Source: Pontimicrobium aquaticum
GTDB taxonomy: Bacteria > Bacteroidota > Bacteroidia > Flavobacteriales > Flavobacteriaceae
Direction: 5' to 3'
Length of the DNA stretch: 64,000 nucleotides
NCBI RefSeq assembly: GCF_005047595.1
Contig: NZ_SUPL01000002.1
Coordinates: forward strand, 372,001 to 436,000
Shown: piece by piece, positions 18,797-27,716 of the stretch
Layout of the letters: each line of letters begins with the position of its first letter
Position numbering within the stretch: the first letter of the stretch is position 1
Translations under genes and position numbers: made by a program
Notes under the pieces: model-generated
The model's database searches: none
The model's input: the letters and a program-made list of their open reading frames with translations, nothing else
What the model was told of the DNA's origin: nothing

Positions 18797-19843
18797 ATGA
18801 AAAAGTTAACCCTCTTATTGTCGCTTTTTGTAGCGATGCAATCAGTACATTCACAAGAGCTTGAGAGCTTACTATTAGCCTCTGAAGATGCTAGTAAACT
18901 AACCGAAAGCTATATAAATCCAGTTATGAAAGGATTAATGTATAGCATGAATGGTAGTTGGGCTACTACAGGTAAAGTTCATAAAACCCTAGGATTCGAT
19001 TTAACGATTAGTGCAAATGCTTCATATGTGCCAGATGCAGATAAGCTATTTGCCTTTATACCTAGTGATTATAATTATTTAACATTGCCTAATGGAGAAA
19101 CATCCCTTCCAACTATAATGAGTGATAATGATTATGAAACAACTGTAGATGTTGAGATAGATAATGGTGATGGCACCTATAATGTTGCGAGTTTTGAAAT
19201 GCCAGGAGGAATTACCAAAGATTTACCAATAAATGCAGTGCCAGCACCTATGGTGCAATTAGGAATAGGACTCCCTACTAAAACAGACTTAAAACTACGT
19301 TACGTTCCAAAACTTAATTTTGATGATTCGGTTGAAGCTAATTTAATAGGTTTAGGATTACAGCATGATATCACGCAATATTTAGGACCAATAGATAAAT
19401 TGCCTTTAAGTTTGTCTATACTTGGAGCATTTACAAACATGGATGTATCATATGCTATTGAAGACGAAGATCCTTCAGATGATGTTACCGTTACCAATGG
19501 AGAAGCTGCTTTCGAAATGAAAACCTGGACAGTTCAAGCTATAGGATCTTTAGACTTTAAAATAATAACCCTTTATGGAAGTCTTGGATATAATGGTGGA
19601 AAATCATCTATAAAATTAAAAGGAACTTACGATTTAGAATATGATGTAGAAGATGGAAGTGGTAATGTTGTTGGGACATATAATGACTCGGTGACCAACC
19701 CAATAAATTTAAATTTTGAATCAACCGGTGTTAGAGGAACATTAGGAGCTAGATTAAATTTAGCATTTTTTAAAATATTTGCTGATTATACTTTACAACA
19801 ATATAACACACTATCTGCTGGAATAGCTTTTAGTTTTAGATAA
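18797..19843 (+). CDS. DUF6588-type outer-membrane protein (copy 1)
   Basis: A 348-residue protein with signal peptide MKKLTLLLSLFVAMQSVHSQ. The mature part shows alternating beta strands ending in an aromatic C-terminus (NTLSAGIAFSFR), as in outer-membrane barrels. It is a clear paralogue of the protein at 26703-27716: both begin with ELLxA...DAxx...YxxPxxxGLxxxxN, share LGxGLPTKTDLKLRYVPK/GTEIKGRFFPKVN-like and FYGGLGYxxGKSxxxLxGTY blocks, and end in xxADYTxxxxxxxxxGIxFSF. Function is unknown. The two copies flank the sigma/FecR/receptor locus. Confidence 0.8.
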   Translation: MKKLTLLLSLFVAMQSVHSQELESLLLASEDASKLTESYINPVMKGLMYSMNGSWATTGKVHKTLGFDLTISANASYVPDADKLFAFIPSDYNYLTLPNGETSLPTIMSDNDYETTVDVEIDNGDGTYNVASFEMPGGITKDLPINAVPAPMVQLGIGLPTKTDLKLRYVPKLNFDDSVEANLIGLGLQHDITQYLGPIDKLPLSLSILGAFTNMDVSYAIEDEDPSDDVTVTNGEAAFEMKTWTVQAIGSLDFKIITLYGSLGYNGGKSSIKLKGTYDLEYDVEDGSGNVVGTYNDSVTNPINLNFESTGVRGTLGARLNLAFFKIFADYTLQQYNTLSAGIAFSFR

Positions 19844-21397: not shown

Positions 21398-22450
21398 TTA
21401 AATTTTGTTAAGAATTAATATAACAGCAGCATCAGTTGTGCTTTTTAATGAAACACTAGTGCTGTTAAAGCTGGTAACTTTCCATGTGTGGTTTAACAAG
21501 TTAAAAGTTGTGTTGCCTGTAAAGGTTAGGTTTAAAAACACTTCAGTTTCTGAGGTTACTTGGTAAGTACCTTCAACATTTTCTATCGCTACATTAACAA
21601 CATTTGTTGCTTCAACTGTTAAATCGTTTGCGAAGTCTATGGTGTATTCTACATAATCGTTTGCGGTTTCAACTCCAGAGTTTATGAAAGATTGTACTTT
21701 AAAGTTTGTTTCCACTAAGAAATCTTCTAAAGCTTCAGCCTCTTCTTCAGCTTCTTCTTCTAATTCTTCTTGATCTAAACAATCATTAATGCTGGATTGT
21801 AAGTCAATATCACTATTAATAGTTATTTCAGTGTCATCACTTAATGTTGCAGTAATTGGATAGCTAACAGCAAATAGTTCTCCGCTTTCAAAATTATCCA
21901 TATAAGTATATAATTCTTGCTCGCTTTCAAGTACTATACTTCCTGTTTGTTCGAAATTTAAACTATATGTCAAAATGGTGATTGGGAAATTAATATCTAA
22001 GCACGAAATAGCGTCTTCAGCTTCGTTTTCGGCTTCTTCACAAGCATCAATTAATGCGTTATACTCAGTTTGATTAGACACAACTATTGTAGTATAGTTA
22101 CTTAATTGTACTGTAATTGGAAATTGAAAAACAACTGTATCATCATCGTCATTAAACTCTCCAAAAATATTTAAGACTTGTTGATAATCTATTTGATTTA
22201 GTATAGTAACTTGAGTTCCATTAACAGTTGCTGTTACTGGAAGCAATACAGATGAGCAAGAAACGCCATCTAAGAAATCATCAAAAGAACCATCGTGCAT
22301 TGAAGAACGCTCTAAATTTTTAGCAGTTCTTGAGTTGGCACTGTTGGTATTTGGGTTTTGTCCATTCTCATTATCTATTTCATCTTGGCAAGATGTAAAA
22401 GATAATAATGAGGTTAACATAATAGCGGTGATAAGTTTTAAATTTTTCAT
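21398..22450 (-). CDS. Repeat-containing surface lipoprotein, divergent from the ECF sigma gene
   Basis: A 350-residue lipoprotein (lipobox FTSC, Cys21). After an Asn-rich linker it has four related beta units of about 32-38 residues: CSSVLLPVTATVNGTQVTIL (65-), VVFQFPITVQLSNYTTIVVS (106-), CLDINFPITILTYSLNF (150-) and FAVSYPITATLSDDTEITIN (192-), each then carrying an acidic/aromatic helix with Cys in units 2 and 4. A very acidic Glu/Ala coil (about 226-243) leads to a C-terminal beta domain. It has no family name that I know. Two ECF-type boxes lie in front of it, so the local sigma factor likely controls it. Confidence 0.78.
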   Translation of the reverse strand: MKNLKLITAIMLTSLLSFTSCQDEIDNENGQNPNTNSANSRTAKNLERSSMHDGSFDDFLDGVSCSSVLLPVTATVNGTQVTILNQIDYQQVLNIFGEFNDDDDTVVFQFPITVQLSNYTTIVVSNQTEYNALIDACEEAENEAEDAISCLDINFPITILTYSLNFEQTGSIVLESEQELYTYMDNFESGELFAVSYPITATLSDDTEITINSDIDLQSSINDCLDQEELEEEAEEEAEALEDFLVETNFKVQSFINSGVETANDYVEYTIDFANDLTVEATNVVNVAIENVEGTYQVTSETEVFLNLTFTGNTTFNLLNHTWKVTSFNSTSVSLKSTTDAAVILILNKI

Positions 22451-22515: not shown

Positions 22516-22541
22516 TAAGACACCTTCGTTTAAATTTACCC
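22516..22541 (-). promoter_or_regulatory. ECF-type promoter P1 for the lipoprotein operon
   Basis: On the minus strand GGGTAAAT (22541-22534), 11-nt spacer, TGTCTTA (22522-22516). The -35-like half is extended upstream as AGGTAGGGTAAAT. The same two halves with the same spacing recur at 22594-22619 and 23187-23212. Predicted start is about 60 nt before the ATG at 22450. Confidence 0.75.
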
Positions 22542-22593
22542 TACCTAAGTTTGTTTTTTTTAATTAAACTAATAATTTTACTTTGTACAGATA

Positions 22594-22619
22594 TATGACA
22601 ACAGAAAATTAAATTACCC
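22594..22619 (-). promoter_or_regulatory. ECF-type promoter P2, second copy in the divergent region
   Basis: On the minus strand GGGTAATT (22619-22612), 11-nt spacer, TGTCATA (22600-22594), then TGTAC. It directly abuts a plus-strand -7 box of the sigma gene (22620-22627), so RNA polymerase binding at the two could exclude each other. Confidence 0.6.
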
Positions 22620-22627
22620 TACTTTTG
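22620..22627 (+). promoter_or_regulatory. Candidate -7 box (TACTTTTG) of the ECF sigma gene
   Basis: TACTTTTG matches TAnnTTTG and ends 36 nt before the ATG. No TTG lies 17-20 nt upstream, so the call is moderate. Confidence 0.45.
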
Positions 22628-22663
22628 TGTGGAAATTATGTGTTTTTAAATGAACTATAACTT

Positions 22664-23179
22664 ATGAATGAAGAGAAACCAAAATTATGTAAAGAAACAT
22701 ACTTTAATGCTTTTTATTTAGAACACGCCCAATCTGCCAGCAATTTTGCTTTTTATAAATGCGGTGATAAAATGAGTGCTTTAGATTTAGTACAAGAAGC
22801 ATTCACTAAGATATGGGAAAATTGCTCTAAGATAGATTTCAATAAAGCAAAAACATATTTATTCACTACAGTTAATAATTTATTTTTAAATACAGTTAAG
22901 CATAATAAGGTTGTTATGGAGTATGCTAAAACTGTTCCTTATGTAGATACTAATAACCAAAATCCAGAATATTTACTTGAAGAAGAGGAGTTTAAACAAA
23001 AGTTGCAAAAAGCTATTTCTATATTAACTGATGTGCAGCGTGAAGTTTTTTTGTTAAATAGGATTGAAGGAAAAAAATATAGAGAAATTGCTGAAATGCT
23101 TGATATTTCACAGAAAGCAGTAGAGAAAAGAATGTCAGGAGCCTTAAAAATATTAAGAGAAAAAATAGAAAATATATAA
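22664..23179 (+). CDS. ECF RNA polymerase sigma factor, FecI-like
   Basis: A 171-residue extracytoplasmic-function sigma factor. Region 2 spans about residues 15-80 (LEHAQSASNFAFYKCGDKMSALDLVQEAFTKIWEN) and region 4 about 105-160 (LTDVQREVFLLNRIEGKKYREIAEMLDISQKAVEKRMSGALK), the helix-turn-helix that reads the -35 element. It precedes fecR and a TonB receptor with an STN domain, the classical FecI-FecR-FecA order for cell-surface signalling. It probably drives the three GGGTAA-N11-TGTC boxes around it. An ECF box between this gene and fecR suggests the two are not simply co-transcribed. Confidence 0.92.
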   Translation: MNEEKPKLCKETYFNAFYLEHAQSASNFAFYKCGDKMSALDLVQEAFTKIWENCSKIDFNKAKTYLFTTVNNLFLNTVKHNKVVMEYAKTVPYVDTNNQNPEYLLEEEEFKQKLQKAISILTDVQREVFLLNRIEGKKYREIAEMLDISQKAVEKRMSGALKILREKIENI

Positions 23180-23186
23180 CAAGGTA

Positions 23187-23212
23187 GGGTAAATTAAAAT
23201 ATAGTTGTCTTA
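23187..23212 (+). promoter_or_regulatory. ECF-type promoter P3 in front of fecR
   Basis: GGGTAAAT (23187-23194), 11-nt spacer, TGTCTTA (23206-23212), with AGGTAGGGTAAAT as extended -35 half. It starts 8 nt after the sigma gene's stop and would begin transcription about 10-15 nt before the fecR ATG at 23231. Confidence 0.75.
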
Positions 23213-23230: not shown

Positions 23231-24151
23231 ATGAAAGAAGAAAAAAACATATTAAAATGGTTTAATAACGAGCTTTCTGAGAAGGAAGTTGAAGATTTAA
23301 AACAATCTGAAGACTTTGATACACTAAAAAAAATAGCTCACTATAGCTCGTTTATGCAAGCACCTAAAATTGATGTAGAACAAGCATTACTAGATTTTAA
23401 GAACAAACATGCTGTTAAAAAAGAAGTAAAAGTTAGAAAACTAAACTTTCAAACTATTTATAGAGTAGCTGCAATAGTTATACTTATGCTGAGTGTATCT
23501 TATTTTGTATTTTTCAATAATAATGTATCAATTAATACAGATTTAGCACAAACAAAAACATTTAGTCTTCCTGATGAATCTGAAGTCATTTTAAATGCAG
23601 CTTCAACATTACATTACAATAAAAAGAAATGGAAAACTTCTCGAGATTTAGAGCTTGATGGTGAAGCCTTTTTTAAAGTGAGTAAAGGACAAAAATTTAC
23701 AGTACATACCGATGTTGGTTCGGTACAAGTGTTAGGAACACAATTTAATGTAAAAGAGAGAGATAATTATTTTGAGGTACAATGTTACGAAGGTTTAGTT
23801 GGTGTAACTTATAATAACACTAAGGTGAAGCTTTCAAAAGGAAAAACGTTTAGAATAATTAATGGAGACATAAAAGAGATTGAAGATTTTAACAAATTAT
23901 CACCTTCGTGGATAGATTCTGAGTCTAGTTTTACCGAAGTGCCTTTGTCTCAAGTTATTCAAGAGCTTGAAAGACAATATCAAATAAAAATAACGATAGA
24001 TAATGATGTAGATACTGCTAAACTTTTCACAGGAACATTTACACACAACGATAAAAATATAGCATTACAATCTGTAACAGTACCATTAAAATTGAGTTAT
24101 GAAATAGATAGAAATAACGTGACGTTTTATAATTATGATGGAACAAAGTAG
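23231..24151 (+). CDS. FecR-family anti-sigma factor / sigma regulator
   Basis: A 306-residue inner-membrane protein that binds the ECF sigma factor in the cytoplasm and receives a signal from the receptor in the periplasm. The start at 23231 (MKEEKNILKWFNNELSEKE) is preferred; the 23216 TTG lies at the predicted transcript start. A cytoplasmic N-terminal part leads to one membrane segment (VAAIVILMLSVSYFVFF, about 78-95). Then comes the FecR domain (TFSLPDESEVILNAASTLHYN, LDGEAFFKVSKGQKFTVHTDVGSVQVLGTQFNV) and a C-terminal STN-like domain (PLSQVIQELERQYQIKITID). Its last 17 nt overlap the receptor gene. Confidence 0.92.
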   Translation: MKEEKNILKWFNNELSEKEVEDLKQSEDFDTLKKIAHYSSFMQAPKIDVEQALLDFKNKHAVKKEVKVRKLNFQTIYRVAAIVILMLSVSYFVFFNNNVSINTDLAQTKTFSLPDESEVILNAASTLHYNKKKWKTSRDLELDGEAFFKVSKGQKFTVHTDVGSVQVLGTQFNVKERDNYFEVQCYEGLVGVTYNNTKVKLSKGKTFRIINGDIKEIEDFNKLSPSWIDSESSFTEVPLSQVIQELERQYQIKITIDNDVDTAKLFTGTFTHNDKNIALQSVTVPLKLSYEIDRNNVTFYNYDGTK

Positions 24152-26681
24152 GCTTGTAATTTATGTATTGTTATTAACTAGCTTTTTGGGTTACGGACAA
24201 ATTCAAGAAAAAAAAGCCTTATCTCAAATCATGAACATTGTTGAGAAAAACTATAATGTTAAGTTTTCTTACTCAGTTAATGATGTGAAAAATATTTTCA
24301 TTGAAGCACCAAGCAATTCACTAACCATTACCGAAATTATAAGTTACCTAAATAAGAATACGCTATTAAATTTTGAACTCTTAAATGATAGATACATTAC
24401 GGTATCTATATTAAATAAAACAATTTCTATTTGTGGTATTGTAACTGGAAATTCAAATAACGATGCACTTTTTGGAGCTTCAATAGTTGTATTAAACACA
24501 GACAAAGGAACAATTGCTAACGAAAATGGCAGTTTTAATTTAGAAAATGTTTCAGCTAATGCACGTATTCTAATTTCTTATTTGGGATATAAATCTCAAG
24601 AATTCTCCGCGAAAGACTTATTTGCAAAAGATAATTCATGTAGTACAATTCTGTTGGAAGAAGCTAACTTAGAGTTAAACCAAATATTAATAACCAAGTT
24701 TTTAACAACCGGATTACAAAAAAATATTGATGGAAGTACTGTGTTGAATACTAAAAAATTTGGGATTCTTCCAGGGCTTACCGAACCAGATGTGTTACAA
24801 TCCATACAAGCATTACCAGGCATCGAAAGTACTAATGAGAGTATAGCAAATATTAATGTAAGAGGAGGAACAAATGATCAAAATTTAATGTTATGGGATC
24901 ATATAAAAATGTATCACTCAGGACATTTTTTTGGGTTAATTTCAGCCTATAATCCGAATGTAACAAGCAAAGTTATTGTTACTAAAAATGGTACTAGTAG
25001 TCAGTATAGCGATGGCGTATCAAGTACAATAAGCATGTTTACCAATGATAATTTGACGAAGAAATTTTCTGGAGGCGCAGGTATAAATTTAATAAGTGGC
25101 GACGCTTTTTTGGAAATCCCTATTACAAAGCAATTAGAGTTGCATGTTTCTGGTAGGCGATCTTTTACTGATGCATTTAGTACCCTAACATATGAAAACT
25201 ATTTTGATAGAAGTTTTCAAGATAGCGATATTAATACTAATTCAGAAACTATTGAAAACAGTGATACTTCTTCCAATTTTGTGTTTTACGATTATACAGC
25301 TAAGTTGTTATTTGATTTAAACGATAAGCATTCCTTTAGAGCAAATTTTATTGGTATAAAAAATGAATTAGATTATTCTGAAAGTATTACAGATAATTTT
25401 AACAAAACCAACACAAAAGAAAGTAGTTTGTCTCAAGATAACTTAGGGTTTGGAGGTAATTGGAATGCACAATGGTCTAATAATTTTTCAACTAATTTAG
25501 TTAGTTATTACTCGCAATATAATGTTGATGCATCCGATTTTAGAGTTGAAACTGATCAGCTTTTAACTCAAGCAAATGAAGTATTGGAAACAGGATTAAA
25601 ACTAAACTCATTTTATAAAGTAAATAATTATTTAACCTTGCTAAATGGCTATCAATTTAATGAAACTGGTATTTTAAATGAAACAACTGTAACAGCACCT
25701 TCATATGAAAGAACTAAGAAAGATGTATTGTTAAACCATGCTTTATATACTGAAGCTGAATATCATAAAGGAAGCACTTATGCTAGAGTGGGAGTACGCC
25801 TTAATTACTTTCAAAAATTCAGTAAGCTTATAGTAGAGCCTAGAATTAATATTAGACAAAAAGTAGGGAAAGGTTTGGCTTTAAAATTAGAAGGTGAATT
25901 TAAAAATCAGTCTGCTACGCAAATAGTAGATTTTCAAGATGACTTTTTAGGCGTAGAAAATAGACGCTGGATTTTAGCTAACGAGCAAAGCATACCAATT
26001 TCAACTAGTAAACAAGGGTCTTTTGGAGTAGAGTACAGTGAAAATAATTTGAATATTGATGTTACAGGATTTTATAAAAAGGTAGAAGGTATTACAGCAA
26101 GTAATCAAGGTTTTTACAATAATTTTCAATACCTAAGTGCTACAGGAAATTATAAAGTAAAGGGCATTGAGTTTTTAGCTAATAAAACAACTAACAATTA
26201 TAGTGCATGGGTAAGTTATACGTACAGTATTAATGATTATAAGTTTGAAAACTTTACACCAATGGTATTCCCAAATAATGCCGATATAAGACACTCCGTT
26301 TCTATGGCAGTAAACTATAACGTGTTAGAAAATTTAAAGCTATCAATCGGTGGTATTTGGCGTTCAGGACAACCTTTTACTAGGCCTGTTGAGGGTAATG
26401 AAACAGTACAAGATAGAAATAACACCTTTGTTAATTACGATACACCTAATAATGAGAACCTTGAAAGTTTCAAGAGATTGGATGTATCGTTAAGCTATAA
26501 CTTTAATATATCCACTAAAACACCTGCAATATTAAGAGCTGGAATTATTAATCTTACAAATCAAAAAAATACTATTAATAGGTATTACAAAGTAGATCCA
26601 AATAACTCTAATAAAACAATTCAAATAGATAACCTATCATTAAAAATAACTCCTAATGTAAGTTTAAGAGTGAAATTTTAG
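24135..26681 (+). CDS. TonB-dependent receptor with N-terminal STN signalling domain
   Basis: An 848-residue outer-membrane receptor. After a signal peptide (ends FLGYGQ) come an STN domain (about 28-95, ALSQIMNIVEKNYNVKFSYS), a carboxypeptidase-regulatory-like beta domain (about 98-175, ICGIVTGNSNNDALFGASIV...), a plug (about 210-300, DVLQSIQALPGIESTNE, NVRGGTNDQN) and a 22-strand-type barrel ending in SLRVKF. The STN domain indicates it signals to FecR on substrate binding. Its start overlaps fecR by 17 nt. The ligand is unknown; no SusD partner is present, so a glycan-uptake pair is unlikely. A DUF6588 gene follows at 21 nt. Confidence 0.92.
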   Translation: MMEQSRLVIYVLLLTSFLGYGQIQEKKALSQIMNIVEKNYNVKFSYSVNDVKNIFIEAPSNSLTITEIISYLNKNTLLNFELLNDRYITVSILNKTISICGIVTGNSNNDALFGASIVVLNTDKGTIANENGSFNLENVSANARILISYLGYKSQEFSAKDLFAKDNSCSTILLEEANLELNQILITKFLTTGLQKNIDGSTVLNTKKFGILPGLTEPDVLQSIQALPGIESTNESIANINVRGGTNDQNLMLWDHIKMYHSGHFFGLISAYNPNVTSKVIVTKNGTSSQYSDGVSSTISMFTNDNLTKKFSGGAGINLISGDAFLEIPITKQLELHVSGRRSFTDAFSTLTYENYFDRSFQDSDINTNSETIENSDTSSNFVFYDYTAKLLFDLNDKHSFRANFIGIKNELDYSESITDNFNKTNTKESSLSQDNLGFGGNWNAQWSNNFSTNLVSYYSQYNVDASDFRVETDQLLTQANEVLETGLKLNSFYKVNNYLTLLNGYQFNETGILNETTVTAPSYERTKKDVLLNHALYTEAEYHKGSTYARVGVRLNYFQKFSKLIVEPRINIRQKVGKGLALKLEGEFKNQSATQIVDFQDDFLGVENRRWILANEQSIPISTSKQGSFGVEYSENNLNIDVTGFYKKVEGITASNQGFYNNFQYLSATGNYKVKGIEFLANKTTNNYSAWVSYTYSINDYKFENFTPMVFPNNADIRHSVSMAVNYNVLENLKLSIGGIWRSGQPFTRPVEGNETVQDRNNTFVNYDTPNNENLESFKRLDVSLSYNFNISTKTPAILRAGIINLTNQKNTINRYYKVDPNNSNKTIQIDNLSLKITPNVSLRVKF

Positions 26682-26702: not shown

Positions 26703-27716
26703 ATGAAAAACCTATCACTTTTTGCATTGTTATTTATGACAATGTTTTTATTAAATGCACAAGAAAATATAGATGAGCTTTTAGCAGCTGGTGTTAAAGA
26801 CGCTAAAACATTTACAACCTATTATATCGCTCCATCTTCCGAAGGATTAGCTTTCGGGATTAACAATGGGTGGTTTAATAAAGCAACCACATCCAAACGT
26901 TTTAAATTAGAATTTTCAATACTTGCAAATGGCTCATTTATTAAAGATGAAAAGAAATCATTTACAATGAATGTGTCAGACTATGAAAACATAAGGTTTT
27001 CAGATAATAGTCCTTCAAAAACAGTAGCAACATCTTTAGGTCATAACGACCCAGATGTTTCGGTATTTGTAACGTATAACGATCCTATTTTTGGAGAGCA
27101 AGAAGTAGAAGTTACTTTGCCAACAGGTATTGGAGCTACAAATATAAGCTTAATACCAACGGCATATTTACAAGCTAGTTTTTCACCTTTTAAAGGAACA
27201 GAAATTAAAGGAAGATTTTTTCCTAAAGTAAATATCGAAGATGCTAATATTGGTTTATATGGTGTAGGCATACAACAGGAGTTTACTAGGTGGTTACCAG
27301 CTGAAAAAGTTTTTCCAGTAGCTGTTTCAGGAGTGGTAGCTTATACGCGTTTAAACGGGAGTTACGATTTTACAGACACAGGAATTGTAGATGGTGAAAA
27401 TCAACAAATAGAAACTATTGTAAACACGATGCTATATCAGCTAGTTGTAGGAACTAAGTTAAAGATGATAAATTTTTATGGAGGTTTAGGATATGTAAGC
27501 GGAAAATCGACAACCAACTTGTTAGGAACTTATAGAGTTTCCAATGGAGTTGTGTTTGCTGATGAAATAGTAGACCCTTTTTCAATTAAGCAAGATGTAA
27601 AAGGTGTAAGAACAAGCTTAGGAGCTAATTTGAAGTTAGGCTTCTTTGCACTAAATGCCGATTATACTTTTGCTGAGTTTGACAGTGCCTCATTAGGAAT
27701 CAACTTTTCGTTCTAA
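26703..27716 (+). CDS. DUF6588-type outer-membrane protein (copy 2)
   Basis: A 337-residue paralogue of the protein at 18797-19843, with signal peptide MKNLSLFALLFMTMFLLNAQ and a barrel-like mature part ending SASLGINFSF. It starts 21 nt after the TonB receptor with no terminator in between and is followed by a terminator, so it is the last gene of the fecR-receptor transcript. That position ties the DUF6588 family to the receptor system. Its role (channel, receptor partner or surface structural protein) cannot be told from sequence. Confidence 0.82.
   Translation: MKNLSLFALLFMTMFLLNAQENIDELLAAGVKDAKTFTTYYIAPSSEGLAFGINNGWFNKATTSKRFKLEFSILANGSFIKDEKKSFTMNVSDYENIRFSDNSPSKTVATSLGHNDPDVSVFVTYNDPIFGEQEVEVTLPTGIGATNISLIPTAYLQASFSPFKGTEIKGRFFPKVNIEDANIGLYGVGIQQEFTRWLPAEKVFPVAVSGVVAYTRLNGSYDFTDTGIVDGENQQIETIVNTMLYQLVVGTKLKMINFYGGLGYVSGKSTTNLLGTYRVSNGVVFADEIVDPFSIKQDVKGVRTSLGANLKLGFFALNADYTFAEFDSASLGINFSF

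Follow-up and report, generated by a model that had tools for sequence, protein, structure and literature searches.

FecI-type sigma factors number in the dozens in Bacteroidota and have mostly unknown targets; the 2021 classification of ECF groups reportedly gives predicted promoters for each group. Several described systems bear on the locus presented here (statements credited to a PMC number refer to the available part of each source). The E. coli Fec system (FecA-FecR-FecI) combines a receptor, a FecR-type anti-sigma factor and a FecI-type sigma factor; its sigma gene is not autoregulated, fecI and fecR being co-transcribed and neither of them FecI-dependent (PMC9249621). In F. psychrophilum, start-site data revealed SM6, a promoter class of ECF type with a CGT -10 box, which drives T9SS genes as well as its own sigma/anti-sigma pair; the same work left the roles of the species' seven ECF sigma factors open (PMC9723704). 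In B. thetaiotaomicron, promoter motif 2, associated with SigW-1 and SigH-1 of the other ECF groups ECF251 and ECF114, carries a TGTT -10 element at promoters proposed for ECF sigma factors, and the available part of that report describes no GTAGG element for it (PMC12596196). A start-site map states, in its available part, that no motif is known for any ECF sigma factor of B. thetaiotaomicron (PMC7366714), and a comparative study describes the prediction of ECF-controlled promoters as challenging and dependent on start-site data (PMC3878776).

Here we describe a locus of Pontimicrobium aquaticum in which three sequence boxes are very probably the target promoters of the adjoining FecI-like sigma factor, and we show that this two-part code, in variant forms, is found again next to many genes for related sigma factors. 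We found no description of this code in the literature searched; we do not claim its absence from print and its priority is uncertain. The window is the whole stretch of 64,000 nucleotides that was analysed, and the features of the locus are collected in Table 1.

Table 1. Genes and predicted promoter elements of the locus, with the remote His-rich gene (window positions unless a contig is named)
Feature	Coordinates	Strand	Evidence and remarks
Outer-membrane beta-barrel, 196 aa	19927..20517	-	PF13568 77.9 bits; in 66/80 named loci
Metzincin-like lipoprotein (HEFGHILGL), 257 aa	20529..21302	-	in 74/80 named loci
Repeat lipoprotein, 350 aa, first gene of divergent operon	21398..22450	-	in 77/80 named loci
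Box 1, predicted distal divergent promoter	22516..22544	-	exact match; divergent box in 78/80 relatives; predicted start site 22510 (pyrimidine-purine rule), 60 nt ahead of lipoprotein ATG
Box 2, predicted proximal divergent promoter	22594..22622	-	exact match; predicted start site 22588
TACTTTTG, putative housekeeping (sigmaA) -7 element of sigma gene	22620..22627	+	sequence
FecI-like ECF sigma factor, 171 aa	22664..23179	+	Pfam Sigma70_r2 (PF04542) 40.9 bits, Sigma70_r4_2 (PF08281) 54.3 bits
Box 3, predicted promoter between sigma stop and fecR	23184..23212	+	exact match; forward box in 80/80 relatives; predicted start site 23218, 13 nt ahead of fecR ATG 23231
FecR-like anti-sigma factor	23231..24151	+	PF04773 FecR 68.3 bits, PF16344 FecR_C 38.4 bits, over cut-off
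TonB-dependent receptor, putative N-terminal signalling-type domain	24135..26681	+	Pfam CarbopepD_reg_2, TonB_dep_Rec_b-barrel over cut-off
DUF6588 protein	26703..27716	+	PF20230 365 bits; 21 nt after receptor
His-rich secreted protein, 149-150 aa	G000:C12:352411-352860 (L031:6412-6861)		42 kb from locus

The sigma factor contains ECF regions 2 and 4, both with Pfam scores over cut-off, and is classed as FecI-like; its 121.4 bits against TIGR02985 (Sig70_bacteroi1) lie below the curated cut-off of 126.4 and it is not counted as a member. The adjoining FecR-type anti-sigma factor, whose start was taken as the ATG at 23231 (the longest ORF opens at TTG 23216 and the Pfam search began at 23246), is a feature of TonB-dependent cell-surface signalling. 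Residues 26-90 of the receptor are FecR_C/STN-like, at 24.0 bits against a cut-off of 24.4 and at 28.3 bits, over the cut-off, in the genome search.

As in E. coli Fec, the locus combines a receptor with FecR-type and FecI-type proteins and, as read from its sequence, does not appear to autoregulate its sigma gene. It differs in that a box parts the sigma gene from fecR, so that the anti-sigma factor would itself be a target, and in that the fec transport operon is replaced by an operon for a lipoprotein, a metzincin-like protein and a beta-barrel. The SusC/SusD-type FecI/FecR systems of Bacteroidia, with their TIGR02985 core, belong to the same sigma superfamily and have a related code, TAGGGGTA-N14-TGTC, with a gap one base longer. 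Unlike here, their box mostly stands before the sigma gene itself (12/26), in apparent positive autoregulation. The receptor also differs from theirs, scoring 52.1 bits against a cut-off of 368.25 for SusC-type TIGR04056, and the locus is not classed as a SusC/SusD polysaccharide utilisation locus. F. psychrophilum SM6 has in common with our boxes that it is an ECF-type promoter class in a flavobacterium; here, the elements are TGTC and GTAGGGTAA.

Two products of the divergent operon deserve description. The repeat lipoprotein has no Pfam family (best sequence-profile E 0.043), and its model, poor past residue 243 (mean pLDDT 65.5), matched no solved structure at E 0.001 or better. The best Foldseek match of the metzincin-like lipoprotein is archaemetzincin 2x7m (E 1.4e-6). 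Its HEFGHILGL lacks the usual third ligand in place and is followed by a conserved HC-x4-C-L-M, of which H213, C214, C219, L220 and M221 do not vary among 39 sequences; for a surface lipoprotein, this is a layout resembling that of archaemetzincins.

A pattern scan of the window for GTAGGGTAAWT-N(10-12)-TGTCWTA gave exactly three matches, each with a gap of 11 nt; 100 dinucleotide-shuffled versions of the window gave none. Boxes 1 and 2 point at the lipoprotein gene and box 3 begins 5 nt after the sigma stop. The presence and identical spacing of the three boxes had been proposed from a sequence-only reading and are confirmed, but the ends given there on the GTAGGG side fell 3 nt short. Across the genome (3.31 Mb, 22 contigs), GTAGGGTAA-N13-TGTC has four exact matches, three of them in the window, and its backward-read form none. 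The motif is therefore not randomly scattered: the fourth copy, at C12:352339, lies 44 nt ahead of the gene for the 149-aa His-rich secreted protein, a conserved candidate member of the regulon. Matching with two mismatches was uninformative (30 genome matches, below the 76 of the backward control), and so only near-exact matches are informative.

The His-rich family adjoins the sigma locus in 15 of 80 related loci, with its own box every time, and the box travels along where the gene lies apart from the sigma gene, as in the window genome, G131 and G002; the G002 sigma factor is only 57% identical. In two genomes besides that of the window, a box precedes the His-rich orthologue (L180 and L184). 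The protein, which has sub-cut-off Pfam matches only, includes a CNHHCHH...YYYHHASFYYY stretch that possibly binds metal. Exact boxes are further found before two small membrane-type proteins of 149 and 141 aa (L177 box 1158 and L182 box 1155), remote from the sigma locus, which may be additional targets.

The 80 loci used for comparison carry relatives of the sigma factor with 67-82% identity in Flavobacteriaceae (one scan of named genomes). Allowing at most one mismatch, a box occurs within 150 nt after the sigma gene in 78 of them and a divergent box in 69. L067 has an exact forward box farther out than 150 nt. A weight matrix adds one forward box, in L117, and divergent boxes in nine further loci; the boxes recovered in this way reach 23 to 37 bits, where the local background has a median of about -15 to -20. 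The boxes of L117 are weak (three mismatches in the divergent and two in the forward one) and have the weakest weight-matrix scores but one. In total, the forward box is present in the sigma-fecR gap of 80/80 loci and the divergent box in 78/80; in the other two, L090 and L136, the sequence spans only 261 and 140 nt upstream. The motif is thus conserved next to orthologues of this sigma factor, as the earlier proposal demanded.

Although such sequence counts are inflated by shared ancestry, the spacing is strict: TGT follows GTAGGGTAA at exactly 13 nt in 152 of its 159 copies in the 80 loci, and the N13 gap occurs in 153 of 154 instances of GTAGGG[TA]A having TGTC in reach. The gene next after 197 boxes (at most one mismatch) is the lipoprotein gene for 99, fecR for 78 and a His-rich family gene for 15; three boxes lie inside ORFs. 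Among 299 genomes of the family, 30 have the exact motif, with 67 matches against 27 for the backward pattern. Sigma factors of at least 69% identity were found, among the matches listed, in 24 of these genomes, the next best being 59% identical; by this count of orthologues, 21 of the 24 genomes have the exact motif as against 9 of the 275 others. In one of the 21, G008, it adjoins a paralogue and not the orthologue, and three genomes have the orthologue without it. Of the ten matches in the nine genomes lacking an orthologue, four adjoin a 47-58% identical sigma factor and one precedes a His-rich protein; for the other five, no sigma gene was found within the 2.5 kb examined.

The proposal that one sigma factor would drive the fecR-receptor transcript as well as the divergent lipoprotein-protease-barrel operon finds good support at the level of sequence, because the motif is not scattered and is conserved beside orthologues. 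Its extension to DUF6588 is weaker: the gene has no box of its own and a DUF6588 gene lies behind the receptor in 17/80 relatives, 47-162 nt downstream. It may form the end of the fecR transcript but is not a conserved part. DUF6588 paralogues lie on both flanks of the locus, the second at 18797-19843 (374 bits).

The sigma gene of the window has no box of its own and lies between the outward-facing boxes. TAnnTTTG is the Bacteroidota housekeeping -7 element (PMC7366714, PMC9723704), and the putative -7 element of the sigma gene, TACTTTTG, shares TAC (22620-22622), the complement of the box GTA, with the -35 end of box 2. Within 130 nt before the sigma gene, TAnnTTTG is found in 28 of the 80 loci (shuffle expectation 6.7, antisense 8), mostly at -50 to -31 relative to the gene (22 of 32 sites). 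A proximal divergent box, no more than 110 nt from where the sigma gene starts, is present in 34 of 81 loci including the window, and in 19 of these 34 it overlaps TAnnTTTG by TAC. A second box facing the lipoprotein operon had been suggested to set a higher output there, and it is quite possible, though short of probable, that the two divergent boxes simply add output and that the overlap has no regulatory effect: tandem promoters are common and the duplicated lipoprotein genes of L073, L075, L076 and L079 bring further boxes. This is nevertheless the weaker part of the earlier proposal, since box 2 overlaps the putative housekeeping promoter of the sigma gene and such overlap keeps to a single register in 18/35 proximal boxes against 0/178 other boxes, with 16 distinct upstream flanks (Fisher value 7e-17, which ignores relatedness). 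With one mismatch allowed, the overlap is less exclusive (31/35 proximal against 24/178 other boxes). It is found in 0/68 divergent boxes of paralogues and is absent from loci having only a distal box, and is therefore a lineage-specific step. As box 2 overlaps the -7 element, ECF- and housekeeping-polymerase should exclude each other, which suggests that box 2 and the housekeeping promoter of the sigma gene are mutually exclusive. The tandem duplication of the lipoprotein gene is seen in L185 as well as in the four loci named, every copy being preceded by one or more boxes of its own.

A second system lies 26 kb away in the same genome, comprising a sigma factor (53% identical), FecR, a receptor and a divergent lipoprotein, with boxes in the same two places and of another type, GTAGGAGTT-N13-TGTT. 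The wider pattern GTAGG-N17-TGTYWTA has nine matches in this genome and one backward; six fall in the two systems, one precedes a 259-aa lipoprotein, one is inside an ORF (other strand) and one is ambiguous. The 259-aa lipoprotein is Asp-rich, its gene follows a paralogue-type box by 45 nt (L160 box 1500, G000:C20:98578), and it is a probable trans target of the paralogous sigma factor. In 80 paralogous sigma loci (47-59% identity), picked by us from among the matches listed, GTAGG-N17-TGT lies after the sigma gene in 64, upstream in 67 and on both sides in 57; a gap of 17 gives 134 matches, against 0-4 for each of the ten alternative gaps in the range 12-22.

This common GTAGG-N17-TGT frame raises the question of whether the boxes serve a different sigma factor or several related ones, such as the paralogue at C12:368.5 kb, the regulon then being shared and not private; five genomes (G008, G002, G029, G045 and G181) indeed have exact GTAGGGTAA-N13-TGTC beside a 47-58% identical sigma factor. 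We consider this unlikely. The boxes flanking one sigma gene match each other, agreeing in the sixth base in 155 of 159 pairs and in the last base of TGTY in 153 of 159, and the codes differ in 10 of 12 two-system genomes, the present one included (paralogue GTAGGA.../TGTT, orthologue GTAGGGTAA/TGTC), the exceptions being G131 and G008.

A search for sigma residues co-varying with box type gave no clear answer. The tree comprised 161 of the 167 sigma factors, five being left out as lacking a box and one because of its length or a stop; on it, there are three changes of the sixth base (G/A) and four of the last TGTY base (C/T). In the Tenacibaculum/Polaribacter branch (L119, L130-L132, L135, L139-L141 and L143), the forward box has TGTT in place of TGTC. 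Residue T69 is V or I in the nine TGTT orthologues, and the residues separating these from the 69 TGTC orthologues, T69 among them, all belong to one lineage and were set aside.

Beyond the family, 30 class-wide TIGR02985 loci contain TAGGG-N17-TGTC 14 times, a pair chosen after 20 head-tail pairs had been tried, and other gaps 0-1 times. It lies mostly 50-180 nt before the sigma gene itself, in 12 of the 26 loci judged, four having been left out for lack of alignment to the window sigma factor. In 99 genomes, the class-wide TAGGGGTA-N14-TGTC shows no excess over its control (40 matches, 35 for the backward pattern); 31 such boxes stand before a sigma gene in six cases, FecR in one and a receptor in three, and within coding sequence in six, so that position alone would speak for it.

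Across 194 distinct sites of the orthologous loci, the conserved columns are GTAGGGTAA(A), an (A/G)GTTGTCTTA-like block and, at positions 33 and 34, T/C and then A/G. This pyrimidine-purine step is found in 190 of 197 boxes, other offsets within 28-35 giving 1-77, and at the same offset in 127 of 144 paralogue boxes. We infer that position 34 is the start site (+1), which would place GTAGGGTAA between -34 and -26 and TGTCTTA between -12 and -6 (TGTC at -12 to -9), GTAGGGTAA and TGTC being separated by 13 nt. The TGTAC noticed earlier downstream of two boxes is indeed present and has the same offset in both, positions 33-37 (the first G being 0); it is the predicted start-site region, where the pyrimidine-purine step, rather than TGTAC, is conserved across relatives. 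With two conserved blocks at fixed spacing before the targets, we read the boxes as a phylogenetically footprinted ECF promoter including its predicted start site. A two-block site might also bind a dimeric regulator, and, the evidence being that of sequence, the boxes could be operators of a separate DNA-binding protein or another conserved element; we judge this very improbable, as the site is asymmetric and always aimed at a gene start (box-to-ORF-start medians of 22, 65 and 48 nt over the three targets), combines a fixed gap with a start-site signal at a fixed offset, and tracks the sigma family across paralogues. Chance or an assembly artefact, for which we found no support, can practically be dismissed: the boxes are conserved in 80/80 named loci and the backward pattern, matched 27 times in 299 genomes, averages about 0.09 per genome.

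Taken as a whole, these observations are in our judgement very likely explained by the boxes being promoters of the FecI-like ECF sigma factor of this probable cell-surface signalling locus. The boxes, their spacing, conservation, start signal and overlap are seen in the DNA itself; sigma binding to the boxes, the signalling steps and the feedback would follow this course. The TonB-dependent receptor would sense an outside ligand and FecR would relay the signal, releasing the sigma factor, which would then have three sets of targets: FecR and the receptor, expressed from box 3; the lipoprotein-metzincin-barrel operon, expressed from boxes 1 and 2; and, in trans, the His-rich secreted protein encoded 42 kb away. 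A housekeeping promoter would serve the sigma gene itself. Since a box precedes fecR and none serves the sigma gene, the sigma factor would raise its own anti-sigma factor, a negative feedback, and not itself; in this branch, when firing, it may even shut its own gene, since box 2 overlaps the -7 element. The zinc-protease fold and the His-rich target lead us to guess at metals or peptides as the signal, and this is a guess only.

A more general proposal, which we hold to be evenly balanced, is that FecI-like sigma factors of Bacteroidia share a frame (G)TAGGG...N16-17...TGTY with a pyrimidine-purine start, a small number of its bases deciding which sigma factor reads it; that the flavobacterial branch places the sigma gene between outward-facing boxes and controls the anti-sigma factor and not the sigma factor; and that one sub-clade has fused the sigma gene's housekeeping promoter with a promoter that depends on the sigma factor, allowing just one of the two to fire. 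If a few bases set the reading sigma factor, the private regulon of each FecI-type sigma factor, and hence the genes that it switches on, could be read from sequence. Such a code, present in two versions in one genome, would make these regulons directly testable and may offer separable promoter-sigma pairs for genetic tools.
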